Of a stretch of DNA of 64,000 nt, positions 37,221 to 48,455 are shown one piece after another. The DNA comes from Hoeflea prorocentri (lineage in GTDB: Bacteria; Pseudomonadota; Alphaproteobacteria; Rhizobiales; Rhizobiaceae). Location of the stretch: the NCBI RefSeq assembly GCF_027944115.1, contig NZ_JAPJZI010000001.1, positions 4,402,001 through 4,466,000 of the forward strand, written 5' to 3'. Each line of letters opens with the position of its first letter. Positions within the stretch are counted from its first letter, which is position 1. The translations under genes and the position numbers were made by a program. The notes beneath the pieces are model-generated. The model searched no databases and was not told where the DNA came from. It saw only the letters and a program-made list of their open reading frames with translations.

Positions 37221-37257
37221 GAGCGATAAGGGGCTGCAAGCCGGCCCCCTATCGCTC
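37221..37257. terminator. hairpin spanning the stop of the flavoprotein gene
   Basis: GAGCGATA at 37221-37228 pairs perfectly with TATCGCTC at 37250-37257, and the inner GGGG/CCCC bases extend the stem. The right arm includes the first bases of the stop codon of the flavoprotein gene on the minus strand. There is no T-run on either strand, so it may end or stabilise the transcript without being a classical terminator. Confidence 0.5.
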
Positions 37258-38170
37258 AGGCAGGTTCCGGTACCCGTGTCTGACACAGGTCGAAAACCAG
37301 CCAGGCCGCCGCCATGTTGCCCATATGGATTGCGGTATTGGCGTTCTGATGGCCCCCATAGGTCAGATCGCCCGCGGCATAGATGCCGTTGCGGCCGGTG
37401 CGGTAGCAGTCGTCGATCTCCACATAGCCACCCTCACGAAGCGGCAGATCGAGAGATTTGACCAGGTCGCATTGTGTCTGGTGAGGCCACACAAGCAGTA
37501 CTTCGCGATCGACCTTGACGCCGTCGCGAAGCACTACCTGCGTCAGCGCTCCTTGGGAGGACTGCAGCGCTTCAATGGATCCATTCACAATGCGAATATC
37601 GAGGGCTTCGATTTCTTTTGCCCGTTCCGCGGGAACATCGACCCGTGGATCGACAAACAGAACAAGATCACGTGTCCAGTTGCGGTAGATTTCGGCGGCT
37701 GCGAGAATTTCCGGCCGGTGGACATAGATGCCCCAGGGACGGTCCTTGAATTCGTATCCCTGACAGAAGGGACAATTGATGACAGAGGTGCCCCACAACC
37801 GGTTAAGGCCGGCGATCGGCGGGAAAATGTCCACCATGCCGGTTGTCAGCAAAATCCGCTTGGCGCTAAAGCGCGACCCGCCCTGTGTTGAAAGGACAAA
37901 GCCGTCACCATCGGGGACGGCGGATGAAATTTCGGCGGACTTGATCTGGGCGTAGCCGTATCCCTTGATTTCCTCGGCGATCCTTTCTCGCACCTGGGCG
38001 GGTGAGGACATGTCCATGCCGGGGAAGCCGCCGACATGCCGCGCCGCGTCGTTGCGCGGGGGCAGCGGGGAATCAAATACGATTGTACGCATCATCGAGC
38101 GCGATAGTGTCAGAGCGGCAGCAAGTCCTGCCGGCCCGCCACCGATGATCGCGACCTGATAATCCGTCAT
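37256..38170 (-). CDS. NAD(P)/FAD-dependent oxidoreductase, thioredoxin-reductase-like
   Basis: This 304-aa flavoprotein has the N-terminal FAD-binding motif GGGPAGLAAALTLSRS and a redox-type CxxC in NCPFCQGYEFKDRPWG. The CPFCQGYE form resembles the disulfide pair of GliT/HlmI-like oxidoreductases rather than the CATC of true thioredoxin reductase. The C-terminal FAD block GRNGIYAAGDLTYGGHQN follows. It may reduce or form a disulfide in a small molecule or protein partner; the partner is unknown. The start at 38170 has a strong AAGGAGG ribosome-binding site. Confidence 0.85.
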   Translation of the reverse strand: MTDYQVAIIGGGPAGLAAALTLSRSMMRTIVFDSPLPPRNDAARHVGGFPGMDMSSPAQVRERIAEEIKGYGYAQIKSAEISSAVPDGDGFVLSTQGGSRFSAKRILLTTGMVDIFPPIAGLNRLWGTSVINCPFCQGYEFKDRPWGIYVHRPEILAAAEIYRNWTRDLVLFVDPRVDVPAERAKEIEALDIRIVNGSIEALQSSQGALTQVVLRDGVKVDREVLLVWPHQTQCDLVKSLDLPLREGGYVEIDDCYRTGRNGIYAAGDLTYGGHQNANTAIHMGNMAAAWLVFDLCQTRVPEPA

Positions 38171-41130: not shown

Positions 41131-41823
41131 TTAATGGAACCCGGATTGCGCCATCTGCCGAAGCCGCTCAAGGTCGAGCACCTCGATTTTGCGCCGGCCG
41201 GAATTCACAATGCCGAGTTTTGACAGCCGTGCCAGTTCCTTGCTGACCGCTTCGCGGTGGGTGCTCAGCTTGGTGGCGATCTGATAATGCGAGGGCGCCG
41301 GCTCGATAAGATAGGGTCCGCCCGACGCGCTGGTTTCGATCATGCGCAGCAATTCCGTACAGATGCGCTGATGGACGGCCATGGTGCTGTATTCGAACAT
41401 CCGATCCGTCAGGCTGCGGTTCTTGCGCACAAGCAGTTCGGCAAGTTTCAATCCAAGGGGCGGGTAATCGACAATAAGAGTGCGAAACTGCGCTGATTCC
41501 AGCCTTGCGAGATAGCTTTCTTCGAGTGCCTCAACCGCCGCAGAACGCGGCCGCTGGTCTATGGCGGAGAACTCTCCAAACACCTGGCCGGCCGAGATTT
41601 CGGCATAGGTGACTTCCTTGCCCTCCACGGAATAGCCCTTCGCCGCAACGCTGCCCTCGACGATGAAATAAACATCAGTCGTTTGCTGGTTCTGGCTGAT
41701 GACTTCCTGTCCCTTTGAAACGCGAAGCCATTCGCAATGTTCGCCGATTTCGTTGAGTTGCCGTACATCCAGATCCGACAGCAAGTCGACCAGATACAAT
41801 AGATTTTTCGCGCCCGGTTTCAT
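41131..41823 (-). CDS. Crp/Fnr family transcriptional regulator
   Basis: This 230-aa regulator has an N-terminal cyclic-nucleotide-binding-type beta barrel (TDVYFIVEGSVAAKGYSVEGK, then GQVFGEFSAIDQRPRSAAVEA with the phosphate-binding-cassette form GEFSAIDxxPRSA), a long dimer helix and a C-terminal winged helix. The E-x-x-x-x-x-P-R-S-A cassette resembles true cNMP binders. There is no N-terminal cysteine cluster as in Fnr. The recognition helix region STHREAVSKELARLSK keeps the Arg-Glu pair that reads TGTGA in Crp, with Lys at the position of the third contact. The ATG at 41823 is used; a GTG at 41832 is possible. It is divergent from the peptidase gene, and a perfect Crp-type site lies between them. 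Confidence 0.88.
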   Translation of the reverse strand: MKPGAKNLLYLVDLLSDLDVRQLNEIGEHCEWLRVSKGQEVISQNQQTTDVYFIVEGSVAAKGYSVEGKEVTYAEISAGQVFGEFSAIDQRPRSAAVEALEESYLARLESAQFRTLIVDYPPLGLKLAELLVRKNRSLTDRMFEYSTMAVHQRICTELLRMIETSASGGPYLIEPAPSHYQIATKLSTHREAVSKELARLSKLGIVNSGRRKIEVLDLERLRQMAQSGFH

Positions 41824-41930
41824 CCACCTCACCCTGGATCAAGCTACCATAATCAAGATTAGCGTCATTGTTGAACGTATGCAGCAAGTTTTTCCGCAAT
41901 TGCCCGATGTAACGGCGGGATTATCGCCTT

Positions 41931-41946: not shown

Positions 41947-41972
41947 TTTTGCCCGATTGAACTGTGCCATGG

Positions 41973-43721
41973 ATGAAAAATCGCCGGCATAGAGGCCATC
42001 CGGACCCGTCGGCAACGAAAAACGGGAACATCAGGCGCATGCATATGATGTCGTCAACGCAGACAATGTCATCGATAGGAACCCTTTCCCGACTGATCGG
42101 GCGACCGCGGGAAGGGGGCCGCAGCGCTGCGCGCAACAAGGCAAACAATGCGCTGCCGGCCGATGAGCTTGGGTTTGTGCTGCAATATCGCCGCCAACCC
42201 GATCTTGAACAGGCGCGCCGGCAACTCGTTTCGATACTGGATACTCTGGATTTCCTGTTACAACCGCTCTTTCCGATGGGTGCAGACGAACTGGCGCATT
42301 TTGCAGTGCTGCGTTTTCCAGGGGTCGGTGCCGGGCGTGCCTCGGACGCGCTGTTCTCAATCGCCTATGAGCTTGGCGAGGCGCTCGATCTCGTCAGTTG
42401 TGAGCCCTGTATCGGCGAATACATCATGACATTCCCGGAGCCGCCGCAGGCGGATGCGGGACCTGCTCAGATGAGCAGTCTTTGCTGGGTCAACAGCCCC
42501 GCACCTGTGGACAAGAAATGGGCGCTGGAAAATACGCGTGTCAACTCGGCCTGGCATTTGTCGCCAGGTCTCGGCAAGGGGATTTTCATTGCCCAGCCGG
42601 ATACAGGCTTTGCGGCTCACGATGAAATCGGATCGGATGCGCTGCGCCTCGACCTTGCCGCCGACATCCTTGAGGGCGACGGCGACCCGACAGATCCGCT
42701 TGATCCGGCTACATCCAATCCGGGCCACGGAAGTGGCATGGCAAGTGTTGCGGTCGGGTGCCGAAGTGGTGAGATCAGCGGTGCTGCACCCGGAGCGCAC
42801 CTCGTGCCGATCCGGTGCGCATCGGACGTACAGATGATCAATCCTGCACCGCTTGCCCGGGCAGTGGATCATGCCCGCATGTCGGGCTGTCATATCGTAT
42901 CCTTGAGCCTCGGAGGGCTGGGGAGCGCTGCGCTCAGGACGTCCATCAGGAAGGCGGTTGAATCCGACCTGATCGTCGTTGCTGCAGCCGGCAATTGTAT
43001 CGGCCTGACCGTTTATCCTGCCCGCTACCCGGAAGTCATCGCCGTTGGAGGCACGAATATCAATGATCGTATCTGGCGTGGCAGCAGCACCGGTCCGGCT
43101 GTCGACATCGCCGCACCGGCGGAAATGGTCTGGCGCGCCAAGCACGATATGGCCAAGGGCGGCAAACCGATCGTTTCAGAGGGACAGGGGACATCCTATT
43201 CGGCGGCCCTTGTTGCCGGAATTGCGGCGCTATGGCTTGAACATCACGGACGCGACAACCTGATCGCCGAAGCCCGCTCCCGGCATGTCACGCTACAGGA
43301 ACTGTTCCGTTCGGCGTTGTGCCGGACCGCGCGGGTTCCGACCGGCTGGAACAGCAGCCGTCTTGGCGCCGGAATTGTCGATGCGGAAACTTTGCTGCGC
43401 CTGGCGCCAAAGGACATTCCGGACCCTGCATGGCCGGCCAAATCCTATCGGCCGTGTTCGACCGAAATCCAGCGCCTCGTGTTTGAGGCAACGCACAAGA
43501 AACCGGAAGACAAGGAATTCGACTGGTGCCGTTACGGGGCGGAAATTGCAAACCTTGCCCTGCGTCTTGCCCATAGCAGAACCCAGTGGAACGGAATGGA
43601 GGGGCAACGGTCCGCCCGGCGCATTGCCGTTTCGGAACATCTTCGAAGGGCCGTGAGGAAGTCAGGCGATTCAGCCCTTGCGTCCCTGACCGAGAGTTTT
43701 GAGAATATATTGTGTGAATAG
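41973..43721 (+). CDS. S8 (subtilisin-like) serine peptidase, cytoplasmic
   Basis: This protein of about 582 aa has an intact subtilase triad: Asp in IFIAQPDTGFAAHD (about residue 210), His in NPGHGSGMASV (about 252) and Ser in GQGTSYSAALVAG (about 408), with the oxyanion Asn in VAAAGNCIGL (about 341). The first 170 residues do not look like a secretion signal; they include a region that could serve as an I9-like prodomain or a regulatory domain (HFAVLRFPGVGAGRASDALF). No signal peptide or membrane segment is visible, so it probably acts inside the cell. About 150 residues after the catalytic domain are helical and of unknown role. The start is uncertain: GTG 41964, ATG 41973 or ATG 42039. 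It heads the set containing the DyP-P450 fusion. Confidence 0.85.
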   Translation: MKNRRHRGHPDPSATKNGNIRRMHMMSSTQTMSSIGTLSRLIGRPREGGRSAARNKANNALPADELGFVLQYRRQPDLEQARRQLVSILDTLDFLLQPLFPMGADELAHFAVLRFPGVGAGRASDALFSIAYELGEALDLVSCEPCIGEYIMTFPEPPQADAGPAQMSSLCWVNSPAPVDKKWALENTRVNSAWHLSPGLGKGIFIAQPDTGFAAHDEIGSDALRLDLAADILEGDGDPTDPLDPATSNPGHGSGMASVAVGCRSGEISGAAPGAHLVPIRCASDVQMINPAPLARAVDHARMSGCHIVSLSLGGLGSAALRTSIRKAVESDLIVVAAAGNCIGLTVYPARYPEVIAVGGTNINDRIWRGSSTGPAVDIAAPAEMVWRAKHDMAKGGKPIVSEGQGTSYSAALVAGIAALWLEHHGRDNLIAEARSRHVTLQELFRSALCRTARVPTGWNSSRLGAGIVDAETLLRLAPKDIPDPAWPAKSYRPCSTEIQRLVFEATHKKPEDKEFDWCRYGAEIANLALRLAHSRTQWNGMEGQRSARRIAVSEHLRRAVRKSGDSALASLTESFENILCE

Positions 43722-43815: not shown

Positions 43816-44658
43816 TTGGAACAAGAGCTTCTAGACTGGACCATGTCCGCCTCCTTGGGCGGTGTCACCGAAATCGCCGTCATGGCTCCCATCATCAAGG
43901 GTCGTGTGCCCGGAGAAAGGCTGACTTACGAGGAAAAACTGCGGCGTGTCATCGCATCGATCAGCGATCGGGCGCAACGCGGCATACCCCATCAGCTCAG
44001 CACGATACCCAGTATTCATTTCGGGCGGATGATGATCATCCGTCCCGAACAGTATCTGACCAATTCCAACGTGCCGGGCCTGGCTTATTATGAGCCGGAT
44101 GACCATGACGGCAGCGCCGCCGATGCGGGGTTTCGTGTTCCCAAACAAATCGATGACTTCAAGATTTCCATCCAGTTTGCCGGCGGACAGTCGGAGGGGC
44201 GCAACGGTGCGCGAGAGCACGACGGTGCTGCAAACGCCCAACCCAGCTTTCACTCATGGCTGTTGACGATCGTCTCTTTCGACGGGGATCTGAAGGTTTA
44301 TTTCCGCGATATCGCGGAATTCCTGGCGCGCGATTTCGACGATGTGTTTGTCAATTGCGTCGACTTTCCCTCAACCGAGAATTTCGAGAGTTTCTGGCAG
44401 TGGATCCGCCGGTACCAGGTTCCCGTTGATCTGTTCCTGTGCGCCTACCCGGATGTTTCCGTCGTGCGCATCAAACAGCTTGAGGATTTCAAACACAGCT
44501 TCGACGCCTTCGTTGCCAAGGTCCGGACGCCGGGCGGGCGCCGGGTTGAGAACATGGATGAACTGTTCGACGAGTTCCTGCGCAAGACGGGGCAATACGC
44601 TTCGGATTTTCCAACGCCGGGCGGAACTTACCGCCGGAAATCGGACGGAGGCCAGTAA
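43816..44658 (+). CDS. uncharacterised protein with DyP-like ferredoxin-fold pattern
   Basis: This 280-aa protein has no firm family name. Visible blocks are EIAVMAPIIKGRVPGERLTY then KLRRVIASI, an IPSIHFGRMMIIRPEQYLT strand-turn, SWLLTIVSFDGDLKVYFRD, and FESFWQWIRRYQVPVDLFLC. The alternation of strands and helices (API..G / IHFGR / FDGDL / PVDLF) recalls the ferredoxin-like half-domains of DyP-type peroxidases and related proteins, but the GxxDG and heme-His motifs are absent, so heme binding is unlikely. The start is a TTG at 43816; an ATG at 43843 is an alternative. Only two bases separate it from the DyP-P450 gene, which argues for a shared function such as a partner subunit. Confidence 0.6.
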   Translation: MEQELLDWTMSASLGGVTEIAVMAPIIKGRVPGERLTYEEKLRRVIASISDRAQRGIPHQLSTIPSIHFGRMMIIRPEQYLTNSNVPGLAYYEPDDHDGSAADAGFRVPKQIDDFKISIQFAGGQSEGRNGAREHDGAANAQPSFHSWLLTIVSFDGDLKVYFRDIAEFLARDFDDVFVNCVDFPSTENFESFWQWIRRYQVPVDLFLCAYPDVSVVRIKQLEDFKHSFDAFVAKVRTPGGRRVENMDELFDEFLRKTGQYASDFPTPGGTYRRKSDGGQ

Positions 44659-44660
44659 TC

Positions 44661-47600
44661 ATGCCGGATATCTACACACGCCCCGCCGGATCACAATCGG
44701 GCGATGCCGCGACCCGAATCCAGGCCCATCTCGGGCAAGCGTCCAAATTCGCCAACGGGAAGACTCGAAACTGGTCGTTATTCTTGTTCTTCAGGATCCT
44801 CAGCAAGGCCGAGATGGACAATTCACGCCTGCTCATGGCCCGTCTGGCGGATGCTGTGTCGAACGCAGAGGGAGGCGTTCCCGACAGTGCGCTCGATCTG
44901 GCAGCCGATCTCGGCGCGCCGCAGGTTGGCCGCTGCGAACCGCCGACCGGCGATCCGGCACATCCCGACCCCGCCGACCCGTTTCCGCCGGCCGATCCAT
45001 TGACAGACAATTTTGCCTCCGACGCGTTCCGCGCCTGGCTCGCTCTTTTATCGAAAGGCGATGTCGGTCCGCTTATTGCCAATCTCTCGGCCTTTTTCGA
45101 CCTGGACAGTGGCAAACCGCCGAGCGAGGCGGTCTTGAAACTTGCGGGATCCCTGGCTGCCGAGCTCAAAAAGAAAAGGGGTGTTTATGCCGCCCTGGAC
45201 TGGCTGCAAAAGAAATTCGACGGCGGGCTGTCGAATGAGACCGTGCTGATATCGCTGATAATGGCGATCGCCGTGCTCATGCGTCACCCCGATGCGAAGG
45301 TCAAAGCGGCGATCGATTCGATTTTCGACTTGACGGCATTTGGCGATGTGGTTGGCGAGGCCGGGCAGAAAGTCGTTTCGCAAGGTCTTGTAGCGGTATG
45401 CGCCTATGAGTTGCTGCGCCAGGCGAAGCTGGCAAGGGACGGCGCCGAGCAAAAGGGCCATCCGTCCCCGGTTCGCAGTGAACGGGTGCAGGTCAACGGT
45501 CATCATGCGGACAAGGCCGTTGTCTATGACCCCGTTCCGGTCAACATCGCCTTTACATATCCGGGCCTTGAAAAACTCGATCTCGATCCGACCACATTGC
45601 GTTCGTTTCCGGATGCCTACCGTCAAGGCATGGCAGCCCGCGCCGGGCGCCTCGGCGATACCGGGCCGAGTGCGCCGGAAAACTGGCACGGAGAACTCGG
45701 CCTTCCCTCCGTCAGCGGCTATTTCACAGGCGGTTTCCAGGTCGGCGCCATGGCACAGGGCGACAAATGGGATATGGGGCCGGAAGAGGACTGGGAGCGG
45801 CTGCGACGGCAGGTCGACGATTTCAATCACAGGTCCGGCCCACGTGGAAAACTGCTGCGCACAATTCTCGGCGGTCTGTTTCGGCTGGTCGGCATGGAGA
45901 TCGTTCATATCGAACTCGGCCAGGATCCCTATTTCGTTGAAAATGGCCGCGCCGTTGCCTCCGGGTTCCGCAAGGAGCATTTTGGCTTTCGCGATGGTGT
46001 GAGTCAGCCTTTTGTGGACATGAAGCTTGGCAAACCCATGCCGGGCGGTGCCACGCCCGGCCGCAATGGAACCTGGGCGCCGGTTGCGCCCGGCGAAATC
46101 TATCTCGGCTATCCCGACGAGGACGGAAACCGCGCCCAGCAGCCGACAAATGCGCTCTTGCGCGATGGCGGCACGTTCATGATTTTCCGCAAGCTGGAAC
46201 AGGATGTAACGGGATTTCGTGCGTTTCTTGCCGAACAACGGCCCGGCGATCCGGCCGCGCAGCAGAAGCTGGCTGCGCAGTTCATGGGCCGCTGGCAAAA
46301 CGGCACGCCGCTGATGATGGCACCGGACAGTCCGCGCGATATCGGTCCGGACAGCGACCGGCTGATCAATGATTTCCTGTTTGTCCGGGACGATCCGCGC
46401 GGGGAAAAATGCCCGCTCGGCTCGCATATCAGGCGCAGCAATCCGCGCGATATCGGCGGACGCAATGATGTGCGCCGGCATCGTATCCTGCGGCGGGGCA
46501 TCGGTTACGGCGGACCGCTGCTCGACAACGGCTCGCGCGGCGACGGCAAAAAGCGCGGGTTGCTCTTCATCGCCGCCAATGCCCGGATCGATCTCCAGTT
46601 CGAGGTTATTCAGGCAGACTGGATGAATGGCGGTGAATTCATGGGACAGGCTGGCCTTGGCAAATGTCCGATTGCGGGAACGAATTCCGGCGGGCTGCAA
46701 GACAGTTTCCATGAGGCCGGCGCGACCGCGCCCGTTACCAATATTCCGGCCTTTGTGACGACACGCGGTGGCGACTATTTCTTTGCGCCCGGCCAGGACG
46801 CGCTGATTGCAATGGCCGAAGGCGAGCGGTTCGAAACGGATGCGGCGGACCTGGTGTCGGGCGGGCACAGCATGAGCGATCCGCAAACCCCGGGGCTTTT
46901 CACGAGGCCAAGAATAGAGGCGTTCACCCGTCTCTTTCTTAATCCCCGGGGCGCGGCGGAGCTTATCCGTGTGACCCCGCCCGACATCCCGCCGGCTTCA
47001 CCCTATCCGGATGGGTCCACGCTGCATGAGCCGGAAACGCTGGGACGTGATGTATGTTTCGTCGGCAAACATCGCCATGTCAGTGATGTGCTGCGGCTGA
47101 TCGATGCTGACGGAAACAGGCGTTTCTCCGTCGCCCATTACAGCGAGGCCGGCAGGCGGGTACTGCGCGGTGACGATATGGTTATCGGTACCGAAACAGG
47201 AGGTCCGACCGAGGCGCAGCGCGAACGGCTGTATTGCATCCTTGGCGAAGCCTGGATGGCGCTTGACGAAGCAAGCAGCGAATCCGGCGGTGTGCGCGGG
47301 CGTCTGGCAGGCATCGTGTCGTCCCGGCTGGAGGCGGCGCTGGAGCGCACCGGTGACAGCCGCGGCATCGACCTTGTGCGGGATCTTGCGACGGATGCAT
47401 CCTATGCGGTGGTGGACGAGTTGTTCGGAACGCCGGGGCCGGGCTGGGTCAGCGAACTGGGCATTGCGCTGCCGTTCGCCCGTCAGCATGTCGGCCACCT
47501 GCATCCGGACTGGCTTTCAGTCTCAAAGGGCAGAATGCCGCGGAACCCCGGTCTTGCAACAATGCAGATCTGGTCCATCCTGACGCTCGGCGATGTCTTT

Positions 47601-48455
47601 GGAAACGTCATCGCCTACAGAACTCTGAGAGATCTGTCGGCACAGGCCGGTGCGGAGCTGATGAACCATTTGAACCGGCTCATTACGGATGCCTGGACAA
47701 AACGGCCGCAGGAGGCCCGCACGCTCGTCGATGCCTTTATCCGGATTGAAGACAGGATGTTGGAGACGTTTGAGGGTTATACGCGCGAACAGTATCATGG
47801 CGATGTCGGCGCCATATTGTTCGAGCTGATCGCCTCGGCAATGGCCGCGATTCCGTCAACCTTCGGCAATGTCATGGACACGGTGCTGCGGTTCAGGATT
47901 GGACTGCCGGAACTCTTTGACCGCATGAGCCGCCTTGGCGTGGCTCCGCTGGACAATGTGGGCGGCGGGCCTTCCCTCGTGACGCGGCTGATCTACGAGG
48001 CGGAACGGTTACGGCCGAATTTCAAGATCCTGATGCGCCAATGCGCCCAGGATACGGAACTGGAGCCGGGCCTGGCTCTTTCCGAGGGGGACTGGGTGGC
48101 GGCCTTGATAACGGCAGCCAATTTCGATGCCACGGTCTTTGACGATCCGTTTCGCTTTTCACTGCATCCGTTTGTACCCGAACACCCGGAGCGGCCCTTG
48201 GCCAATTACCTGCTGTTTGGAGCGGCGACAATGCCGCGTGAAGGAGAATCCGATCTGCAGGCGCGGGTGCGCGGGCGCCACTGCTGGGGGCGTGACGCGG
48301 TTGCCTTGCATATACTCGAACAATGCGTGCTCGCGGCGGGCCGCCTGGACGGGTTGCGTAATGTGGCCGGGCATGCCGGGGAGATGCAGGAGATTGCCGG
48401 TGCCAAAACCGGTCTTCTGGCACGCTTTGCCCGGCTGCGGCCGAGGCAGTTCTGA
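44661..48455 (+). CDS. DyP-type heme peroxidase-cytochrome P450 fusion protein
   Basis: This 1264-aa protein has three parts. Residues 1-285 are mostly helical and unrecognised. Residues 290-765 form a DyP peroxidase: the GxxDG motif is GFRDG at 442-446 with the catalytic Asp445, the heme-ligand His589 lies in CPLGSHIRRSNPR, a conserved distal Arg lies near 608 (RRHRILRRG), and LLFIAANARIDLQFEVIQ follows. Residues 790-1235 look like a P450: ExxR is E1113-R1116 (EAERLRP), and the Cys-ligand loop is RGRHCWGRDA with Cys1208, preceded by LLFG at 1184-1187. The I-helix region (1051-1078) reads AMAAIPSTFGN and lacks the usual acid next to the Thr. No signal peptide is seen. Fungal dioxygenase-P450 fusions act on fatty acids with a peroxide intermediate; a similar peroxide-coupled oxidation is inferred here. 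Confidence 0.82.
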   Translation: MPDIYTRPAGSQSGDAATRIQAHLGQASKFANGKTRNWSLFLFFRILSKAEMDNSRLLMARLADAVSNAEGGVPDSALDLAADLGAPQVGRCEPPTGDPAHPDPADPFPPADPLTDNFASDAFRAWLALLSKGDVGPLIANLSAFFDLDSGKPPSEAVLKLAGSLAAELKKKRGVYAALDWLQKKFDGGLSNETVLISLIMAIAVLMRHPDAKVKAAIDSIFDLTAFGDVVGEAGQKVVSQGLVAVCAYELLRQAKLARDGAEQKGHPSPVRSERVQVNGHHADKAVVYDPVPVNIAFTYPGLEKLDLDPTTLRSFPDAYRQGMAARAGRLGDTGPSAPENWHGELGLPSVSGYFTGGFQVGAMAQGDKWDMGPEEDWERLRRQVDDFNHRSGPRGKLLRTILGGLFRLVGMEIVHIELGQDPYFVENGRAVASGFRKEHFGFRDGVSQPFVDMKLGKPMPGGATPGRNGTWAPVAPGEIYLGYPDEDGNRAQQPTNALLRDGGTFMIFRKLEQDVTGFRAFLAEQRPGDPAAQQKLAAQFMGRWQNGTPLMMAPDSPRDIGPDSDRLINDFLFVRDDPRGEKCPLGSHIRRSNPRDIGGRNDVRRHRILRRGIGYGGPLLDNGSRGDGKKRGLLFIAANARIDLQFEVIQADWMNGGEFMGQAGLGKCPIAGTNSGGLQDSFHEAGATAPVTNIPAFVTTRGGDYFFAPGQDALIAMAEGERFETDAADLVSGGHSMSDPQTPGLFTRPRIEAFTRLFLNPRGAAELIRVTPPDIPPASPYPDGSTLHEPETLGRDVCFVGKHRHVSDVLRLIDADGNRRFSVAHYSEAGRRVLRGDDMVIGTETGGPTEAQRERLYCILGEAWMALDEASSESGGVRGRLAGIVSSRLEAALERTGDSRGIDLVRDLATDASYAVVDELFGTPGPGWVSELGIALPFARQHVGHLHPDWLSVSKGRMPRNPGLATMQIWSILTLGDVFGNVIAYRTLRDLSAQAGAELMNHLNRLITDAWTKRPQEARTLVDAFIRIEDRMLETFEGYTREQYHGDVGAILFELIASAMAAIPSTFGNVMDTVLRFRIGLPELFDRMSRLGVAPLDNVGGGPSLVTRLIYEAERLRPNFKILMRQCAQDTELEPGLALSEGDWVAALITAANFDATVFDDPFRFSLHPFVPEHPERPLANYLLFGAATMPREGESDLQARVRGRHCWGRDAVALHILEQCVLAAGRLDGLRNVAGHAGEMQEIAGAKTGLLARFARLRPRQF

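Follow-up and report, generated by a model that had tools for sequence, protein, structure and literature searches.

A DyP-type peroxidase and a cytochrome P450 are joined in one chain in Hoeflea prorocentri, and the gene that encodes them represents one variant of a module, widespread and apparently undescribed, in which a helper gene is combined with a DyP and another heme protein. Related bacteria keep the pair together or have a catalase relative instead of the P450, and this points to a bacterial pathway, apparently not yet described, for making or reshaping organic peroxides. The DNA analyzed was a stretch of 64,000 nt, hereafter the window (NZ_JAPJZI010000001.1, 4,402,001-4,466,000), and all coordinates below are window positions. 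The genes concerned are:

41131 to 41832, minus strand: Crp/Fnr-type regulator, 233 aa (Pfam cNMP_binding, HTH_Crp_2)
41964 to 43721, plus strand: S8 subtilase, 585 aa (Pfam Peptidase_S8)
43816 to 44658, plus strand: helper gene, 280 aa, alpha/beta barrel-like, 2 bp upstream of the fusion gene
44661 to 48455, plus strand: DyP-P450 fusion gene, 1264 aa, an open frame with full-length relatives in two congeners and at locus L128
48467 to 51388, minus strand: class III cyclase-AAA-TPR protein, 973 aa, convergent (Pfam Guanylate_cyc, AAA_16, TPR)

The 1264-codon frame at 44661-48455 (+) contains no internal stop, which bears out the reading of an earlier note on this DNA, and the search for the same fusion that the note had proposed was successful. 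Full-length homologues were found in two of the seven congeners searched (G006 and G007, at 67% and 68% identity), and a 1142-aa fusion homologue of ~40% identity was found at L128, in a different family. The lone TAG reported in the G006 homologue is its terminal codon. Since full-length homologues exist in these three genomes, the fusion is neither a chance event nor an assembly accident, and the joining of DyP and P450 in one chain is real. A whole-protein, single-sequence scan of genome contigs gave no relative, with none of 15 pattern-matching stretches confirmed. The chain, a natural, self-contained and predicted two-heme protein with a mass of ~140 kDa as estimated from its length, has the following parts:

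44661 to 45515, plus strand: N-terminal region, residues 1-285, less conserved, no family match
45516 to 46895, plus strand: DyP-type peroxidase domain, residues 286-745 (PDB 8re3 and 2d3q matches; TIGR01413 below cut-off)
45984 to 45998, plus strand: GFRDG motif (442-446) with distal Asp445 (2d3q alignment)
46425 to 46427, plus strand: His589, proximal heme ligand, aligned with H308 of 2d3q
46491 to 46493, plus strand: Arg611, distal Arg, aligned with R329 of 2d3q
46971 to 48452, plus strand: cytochrome P450 domain, residues 771-1264 (Pfam p450 above cut-off; tree position)
47997 to 48008, plus strand: ExxR motif EAER (1113-1116), from alignment
48282 to 48284, plus strand: Cys1208, P450 heme thiolate ligand, preceded by a lengthened loop (invariant column, 33/33 rows)

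The ~285 N-terminal residues matched no family in Pfam or NCBIfam and are 48% and 52% identical to their counterparts at loci L024 and L025. This region, the lengthened heme loop and the companion genes had been overlooked in the earlier note.

The DyP part matched PDB chains 8re3 (phmmer E 1.1e-48) and 2d3q, a fungal DyP (E 1.1e-25), the former aligning over both half-domains (chain stretches 297-349 and 438-718). Scores against the family models fell below cut-off, both for the two Pfam DyP models (21.1 vs 27.5 bits and 17.0 vs 20) and for NCBIfam TIGR01413 (81.1 vs 100.5 bits). Residues D171, H308 and R329 of 2d3q, numbered by counting letters from the printed start of the aligned sequence and taken by us to be catalytic, align with D445, H589 and R611, so that the GXXDG Asp, the proximal His and the distal Arg are all present. 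The GFRDG motif and His589 lie where the earlier note had placed them, and the distal Arg is R611 rather than a residue near 608, because it is R611 that aligns with R329. On this alignment the domain carries a complete catalytic triad; H2O2-dependent dye oxidation is an activity characteristic of its superfamily.

The C-terminal half scored 24.0 bits against Pfam p450 (PF00067; cut-off 22.8) over residues 1106-1188 only, about 80 residues, and its P450 groups in the tree with other DyP-associated P450s. The ExxR (E1113/R1116) and the heme Cys with its glycine (C1208/G1210) are retained in 33/33 aligned rows, and the window clade shows no variation in Cys, ExxR or the W-G that follows the Cys. 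The EAER motif and the GRHCWG cysteine loop stand as first described, and the retained DyP triad and P450 motifs support a predicted two-heme chain. Between FG1187 and Cys1208 lie 20 residues, compared with 7 at L128 (FGPPGGVHRCWG); the usual FGxGxHxCxG has 5. An R replaces the G at Cys-4 in the window protein; the loop of L128 is an ordinary HRCWG. Given the lengthened loop and this Arg, the window P450 may be altered. A search for P450s of the window type gave matches in three of 297 genomes in the order sample (the source genome, G226 and G275, the last with only a short generic P450 stretch) and in seven of 299 in the phylum sample, where all except that of the source genome were short generic matches.

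The I helix sets these P450s apart from generic ones. In fused P450-helper-DyP frames the pattern [ASTV]G[FT][VGTA]PT was found in 78/78 (75 distinct sequences), each with Pro at the Thr252 site; in solved P450s the residue aligned with this Pro is the first Thr of AGHLTT/AGHITT. Amongst P450s encoded by separate genes beside a DyP, 9 of 11 have the same Pro, the exceptions being L094 with D-T-T and L195 with neither. The P450s of the window and L128 have neither acid nor Thr at the aligned columns, so the window P450 lacks the pair expected of monooxygenases that use O2 and a reductase. In contrast, generic control P450s showed AGx[DE]T[TS] in 24 of 25 readable cases (30 loci). Judged from these alignments, the acid-alcohol pair responsible for O2 activation is missing from most DyP-associated P450s, a trait shared with P450 peroxygenases in passages of PMC10988616.

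The wider occurrence of the module was examined in 398 Pseudomonadota genomes, 27 of which were helper-positive, and at 20 helper loci from these 27. DyP was present at all 20, a P450 at nine, a catalase-related protein at seven, both at none and neither at four; P450 and catalase relative are therefore alternatives at helper loci, and a second heme protein of one kind or the other accompanies 16/20. A conserved partner that is often a second heme protein, be it a P450 lacking the customary O2 machinery or a catalase relative, narrows the function to testable chemistry, the making or transformation of peroxides. A search with a helper alignment gave 236 matches, from which 80 loci were kept; in 73 of these the opposite order, P450-helper-DyP, is fused (relatives mostly rhizobia). 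The two opposite-order fusions are independent in the DyP tree (AU p 1.6e-5), and by this tree the same two enzymes were fused repeatedly, at least two times. No bacterial DyP-P450 fusion or module was found described in the open-access library searched, subscription papers and preprints lying outside that scope, which is consistent with the earlier note recalling no such enzyme. That note had treated the fusion alone and missed both the module, with its helper and often cyclase and Crp/Fnr genes, and the dual order of fusion.

Cyclase-TPR and Crp/Fnr genes accompany 52 of the 73 opposite-order loci, and both are present at 53 of the 80 helper-found loci. The L128 fusion is likewise adjoined by a cyclase homologue (31% identity), and Crp/Fnr relatives occur there and at opposite-order fusion loci; a cyclase of the window type was not seen at 16 of the 20 wider helper loci. 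Subtilase relatives were detected at L024 (70%) and L025 (69%) and none at L128 by tblastn; the subtilase is a neighbour within the genus and not a constant part of the module. A scan of ten neighbouring proteins revealed a flavin reductase-like protein (37256-38170, Pyr_redox_2) and no ferredoxin.

The 20 genomes contain 11 catalase-related genes, eight of them at the helper locus, and at L194 the catalase relative is fused to DyP. Their profile matched 3e4w best in the PDB (1.5e-6), followed by catalases, with coral allene oxide synthase (AOS) 1u5u weaker (0.0019) and ranking under true catalases. R-x3-Y is kept in 11/11, and the distal His site holds His in six, N in four and Q in one. Additionally, a few lipid-related genes were noted, each at a single locus and none at the window: patatin and FadL in the L201 gene row, a Tle1-like lipase at L203 and an animal haem peroxidase at L194.

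We give about even chances to a two-heme enzyme in which the partner heme protein transforms a peroxide made or activated by the DyP. The DyP domain would form a ferryl/radical state and either oxygenate a lipid-like substrate to a hydroperoxide or activate a peroxide. The P450 domain, keeping its thiolate Cys without the pair for O2 activation by reductase electrons, would take the (hydro)peroxide and isomerize, cleave or use it, and the fusion would prevent an unstable intermediate from diffusing away. Binding or delivery of substrate is a possible role of the helper, and the cyclase and Crp/Fnr genes suggest cyclic-nucleotide control. The proposal of the earlier note, in which one domain makes or spends a peroxide and the other uses it, is supported or strengthened, at the level of sequence, because the acid-alcohol pair is mostly missing and a catalase relative stands in the P450's place. 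Points against this explanation are the four of 20 loci with neither partner, the D-T-T of L094, the altered window heme loop and the ~80-residue span of the Pfam p450 match; furthermore, DyPs normally consume H2O2, and the catalase relatives are weakly AOS-like, with 6/11 keeping the distal His. A more specific version remains tentative: a DyP-based, oxylipin-type pathway under cyclic-nucleotide control, in which the DyP would serve as dioxygenase, with an exchangeable second heme protein as hydroperoxide isomerase or lyase; this partner would be a P450 or a catalase relative, either fused before or after the DyP or encoded by an adjacent gene. If true, bacteria would have arrived independently at the chemistry of fungal DOX-CYP, plant LOX plus CYP74 and coral cAOS-LOX. 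To our knowledge, the enzymes that exist in a P450 form as well as a catalase-related form are fatty-acid hydroperoxide isomerases and lyases, and we know of no DyP with demonstrated fatty-acid dioxygenase activity. Passages of PMC13049297 and PMC5617202 describe fatty-acid hydroperoxides as the substrates of plant CYP74, fungal fusion CYPs and coral cAOS.

Rather unlikely, in our estimate, is that two H2O2 users merely sit side by side, the P450 as a peroxygenase that hydroxylates or decarboxylates and the DyP separately oxidizing another substrate or trimming H2O2. Loss of the acid-alcohol pair fits peroxygenases, as passages of PMC10988616 describe them, and DyP is by family an H2O2 enzyme, but the catalase relative replacing the P450 at 7/20 loci would be unexplained unless it removes H2O2. 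Moreover, the acid site has no Arg, unlike that of CYP152, whose Arg we presume to lie at this I-helix position; in passages of PMC10988616, Arg245 of OleT is named. An ordinary monooxygenase served by unlinked ferredoxins, with the DyP only clearing peroxide leaked by uncoupling, seems improbable: P450s that have Thr but no acid do work (EryK, AGHITT in the alignment) and the L094 P450 retains D-T-T, yet acid and Thr are both absent from the window P450 and all 78 fused frames, and the ten neighbours offer no ferredoxin and, in the flavin reductase-like protein, a weak candidate partner.

We also assign a low probability to a P450 half that is a heme-free or inactive scaffold, comparable to the P450-derived glycosyltransferase activators. 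Its best NCBIfam match is such an activator family, TIGR04515 (33.5 bits, cut-off 343), and its heme loop is altered; against this stand the Cys in 33/33 rows, the invariant Cys, ExxR and W-G of the window clade and the ordinary loop at L128. Least probable is a stress or defence device in which the cyclase makes a signal and Crp/Fnr switches on a two-heme oxidant generator, as the shared cyclase and Crp/Fnr genes at the window, L128 and the 53 helper-found loci, and weak PADLOC matches to PycC and cNMP domains, might suggest. Those matches span common domains only (PycC models at best 1.4e-5 in the Pycsar comparison; the Crp protein matching TIR effectors in their cNMP part only), none of the PADLOC models matched the fusion or the helper, and such a cyclase is missing at 16/20 wider loci.

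Amongst known systems, stand-alone DyPs (2d3q, 8re3) share the domain family and catalytic residues but have no P450, and we know of no helper gene for them. CYP152 peroxygenases are also stand-alone, and the window-group P450s have small or aliphatic residues before the Pro instead of the CYP152 Arg, in an I-helix site that we take to be Arg-Pro; both lack the acid-alcohol pair, as passages of PMC10988616 indicate for CYP152. In fungal dioxygenase-P450 fusions (linoleate diol synthases, PpoA type), a heme peroxidase-type domain precedes a P450 in one chain, as in the window. These are eukaryotic and use a domain of the peroxidase-cyclooxygenase superfamily, whereas the window's N-terminal enzyme is bacterial and a DyP, and Pfam gave the protein no An_peroxidase match even at a permissive limit of E 1; the parallel with an unrelated peroxidase fold, drawn in the earlier note, is supported by sequence. 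We know of no helper, cyclase or Crp linkage for the fungal fusions. Their P450 transforms the hydroperoxide, according to passages of PMC13049297 and PMC4420034, and in coral fusions of lipoxygenase with catalase-related AOS or HPL a hydroperoxide maker is likewise joined to a hydroperoxide-transforming heme protein (passages of PMC5617202). The coral enzymes use a lipoxygenase, not a DyP, and the window uses a P450, while in sister loci the second heme protein is, as in coral, a catalase relative, DyP-fused at L194. Altogether, in its proposed working the bacterial fusion resembles the fungal dioxygenase-P450 and coral cAOS-LOX fusions and is unrelated to them by descent.

The earlier note had described a dye-decolorizing-type peroxidase (DyP) joined to a cytochrome P450 in one polypeptide, and the frame indeed runs for 1264 codons without interruption, with the motifs at the residues named. 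The features of the window concerned are:

41964-43721 (+), S8 subtilase gene
43816-44658 (+), helper gene for an alpha/beta barrel-like protein of 280 aa
44661-48455 (+), DyP-P450 fusion gene
44661-45515 (+), N-terminal 285 residues of the fusion, without a family match and shorter in locus L128 (a fusion in another family)

The DyP domain matched solved DyPs strongly (8re3, E 1.1e-48; 2d3q, 1.1e-25), and Pfam DyP models scored under their cut-offs. By residues counted along the alignment, D445, H589 and R611 align with D171, H308 and R329 of 2d3q, the distal Asp, proximal His and distal Arg. The P450 half passed the Pfam p450 cut-off narrowly (24.0 versus 22.8 bits, residues 1106-1188), and both ExxR and Cys1208 are kept in this C-terminal part. 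With the frame intact, the motifs in place and both DyP and p450 matched, the original observation therefore stands.

The suggested search for the same fusion in other genomes, covering 101 genomes (its own, seven congeners and further members of the family and order), recovered it at full length in two congeners, at 67% and 68% identity. An even sample of the order (297 genomes) yielded one further fusion, that of L128 in genome G226, with 1142 aa and about 40% identity to the window protein over 1018-1044 positions. The helper gene lies directly upstream of it, and the vicinity holds a Crp/Fnr gene and a cyclase-AAA-TPR gene with 31% identity to its counterpart in the window. The helper, DyP-P450, cyclase-AAA-TPR and Crp/Fnr set is thus conserved across a divergence that leaves the fusion 40% identical.

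The helper profile matched 27 of 398 Pseudomonadota genomes in an even sample, own genome included. Among the other 26, the flanking DNA of 20 was scanned over all stop-to-stop frames; left out were G312, G573 and four genomes in which the helper match coincides with open frames of 1410-1542 aa (G164, G288, G307 and G324). DyP was present at all 20 loci, a P450 at nine, a catalase-related protein at seven, and the two together at none; by hand calculation, zero overlap given nine and seven of 20 has a chance of 330/77520, or about 0.004. The P450 and DyP models were built without these loci, and the catalase-related model from four of its seven. Neither partner was found at four loci (L196, L200, L202, L208), and cyclases of two modelled kinds occurred at four of the 20. 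The catalase-related family had 11 members in the 20 genomes, eight of them at the helper locus, and none in the window genome. Genomes G059 and G095, added to this search after their loci had been viewed, carry three catalase-related genes, each adjoining a DyP gene. At L194 the catalase-related protein is fused to the DyP C-terminus, in the same place as the P450 in the window. Other locus features were:

L194, 2269-5295 (-), animal haem peroxidase of 1008 aa, which with a second catalase-related gene lies opposite the helper and DyP-catalase-like fusion, giving up to four heme domains in the locus
L200, 3385-4779 (-), RoxA-like (rubber oxygenase) cytochrome c adjoining the helper and DyP genes, which may be a further alternative as the second heme protein
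L038 (G095), two DyP-helper sets, several cyclase- or TPR-type genes and one catalase-related gene within 19 kb

The opposite order, P450-helper-DyP, emerged from a helper search of genome contigs that confirmed 236 loci; the 80 kept (L040-L119) are redundant, being mostly Mesorhizobium and kin. All three domains share one frame at 73 of them (1385-1464 aa where no contig end cuts them), six have a helper-DyP frame, and the ORF list of L089 contains no helper/DyP fusion frame. At two helper-DyP loci, L075 and L094, the P450 is encoded immediately upstream by a gene of its own. Cyclase-TPR and Crp/Fnr profiles matched at 65 and 61 of the 80 loci, respectively, and together at 53 (52 of the 73 fusion loci). 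In the annotated record NZ_CP119567, a 1423-aa protein of this kind is labelled only 'cytochrome P450'. Helper-DyP fusions of about 950-985 aa, with the P450 absent from the same frame, occur at L022, L079, L095, L113 and L115. An S8 subtilase gene is found close to each of the two fusion types (in the window and at L190, 9418-11034 (+)); the two are 31% identical over 172 aa, possibly reflecting general kinship alone.

In the P450 I-helix, all 78 fused P450-helper-DyP ORFs (75 distinct) carry [ASTV]G[FT][VGTA]PT. Solved P450s aligned to the profile read AGHLTT or AGHITT at these columns, which places Pro on the catalytic Thr site with no acid before it. Pro also occupies this site in nine of 11 P450s encoded separately from DyP (L030, L033, L195, L197, L198, L201, L203, L075, L094, L193, L199); L094 reads D-T-T instead, and L195 shows neither of these. 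The window and L128 P450s have no acid and no Thr at the aligned columns. Among generic P450s of relatives, taken as a control (30 loci, five unreadable by the pattern used), 24 of 25 had the normal motif and one was without it. CYP74 enzymes and the P450 partners of fungal fusions are likewise not known to carry the acid-alcohol pair. P450 peroxygenases lack it as well (PMC10988616).

Against solved structures, the catalase-related profile matched 3e4w best (1.5e-6), then true catalases, then 1u5u (0.0019), the coral allene oxide synthase (AOS). Since 1u5u is matched weakly, the connection with AOS chemistry is one of shared family rather than of close kinship. A proximal-side R-x3-Y was present in 11 of 11 proteins (eight genes of the 20 loci plus three from L036, L038 and L039), with H at the distal His site in six, N in four and Q in one. 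The coral enzyme uses fatty-acid hydroperoxides as substrates and does not scavenge H2O2 (PMC5617202).

Phylogenetic analysis of 47 DyP domains placed the four DyP-P450 proteins in one clade (100/100), parted from the P450-helper-DyP fusions by a 100/99 branch, with P450 and catalase partners present on either side; a topology grouping both fusion types was rejected (AU p 1.6e-5). The P450 tree placed the window clade with DyP-linked P450s on a 99/98 branch that includes one doubtful generic row; branches are long, and the tree neither establishes monophyly nor rejects it (AU p 0.24). These results are thus read as at least three separate fusions of DyP to a second heme protein: DyP-P450, P450-helper-DyP and DyP-catalase-like.

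Among the matches listed from the open-access literature, with subscription papers and preprints outside scope, none was recognisable as an account of a DyP-P450 fusion, nor did passages of PMC4420034, PMC13049297, PMC8230527, PMC10988616 and PMC5617202 contain one, and a term search of part of PMC11719350 found no mention of DyP.

Judging from sequence, the best explanation, to which we give about an even chance, is that a peroxide would pass between DyP and the second heme, because the alternation of P450 and catalase relative parallels hydroperoxide enzymes and the O2 machinery is lost. Lipid genes at single loci, none of them seen at the window, agree with a passed peroxide: patatin and FadL genes at L201, a Tle1-like lipase adjoining L203 and an animal haem peroxidase adjoining L194. 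The boldest step of this proposal is that DyP itself would dioxygenate a substrate; PMC7181223 reports a fungal DyP with alkene-cleaving activity. Enzymes that occur, depending on the organism, as a P450 or a catalase relative and work beside a hydroperoxide former are known for fatty-acid hydroperoxides.
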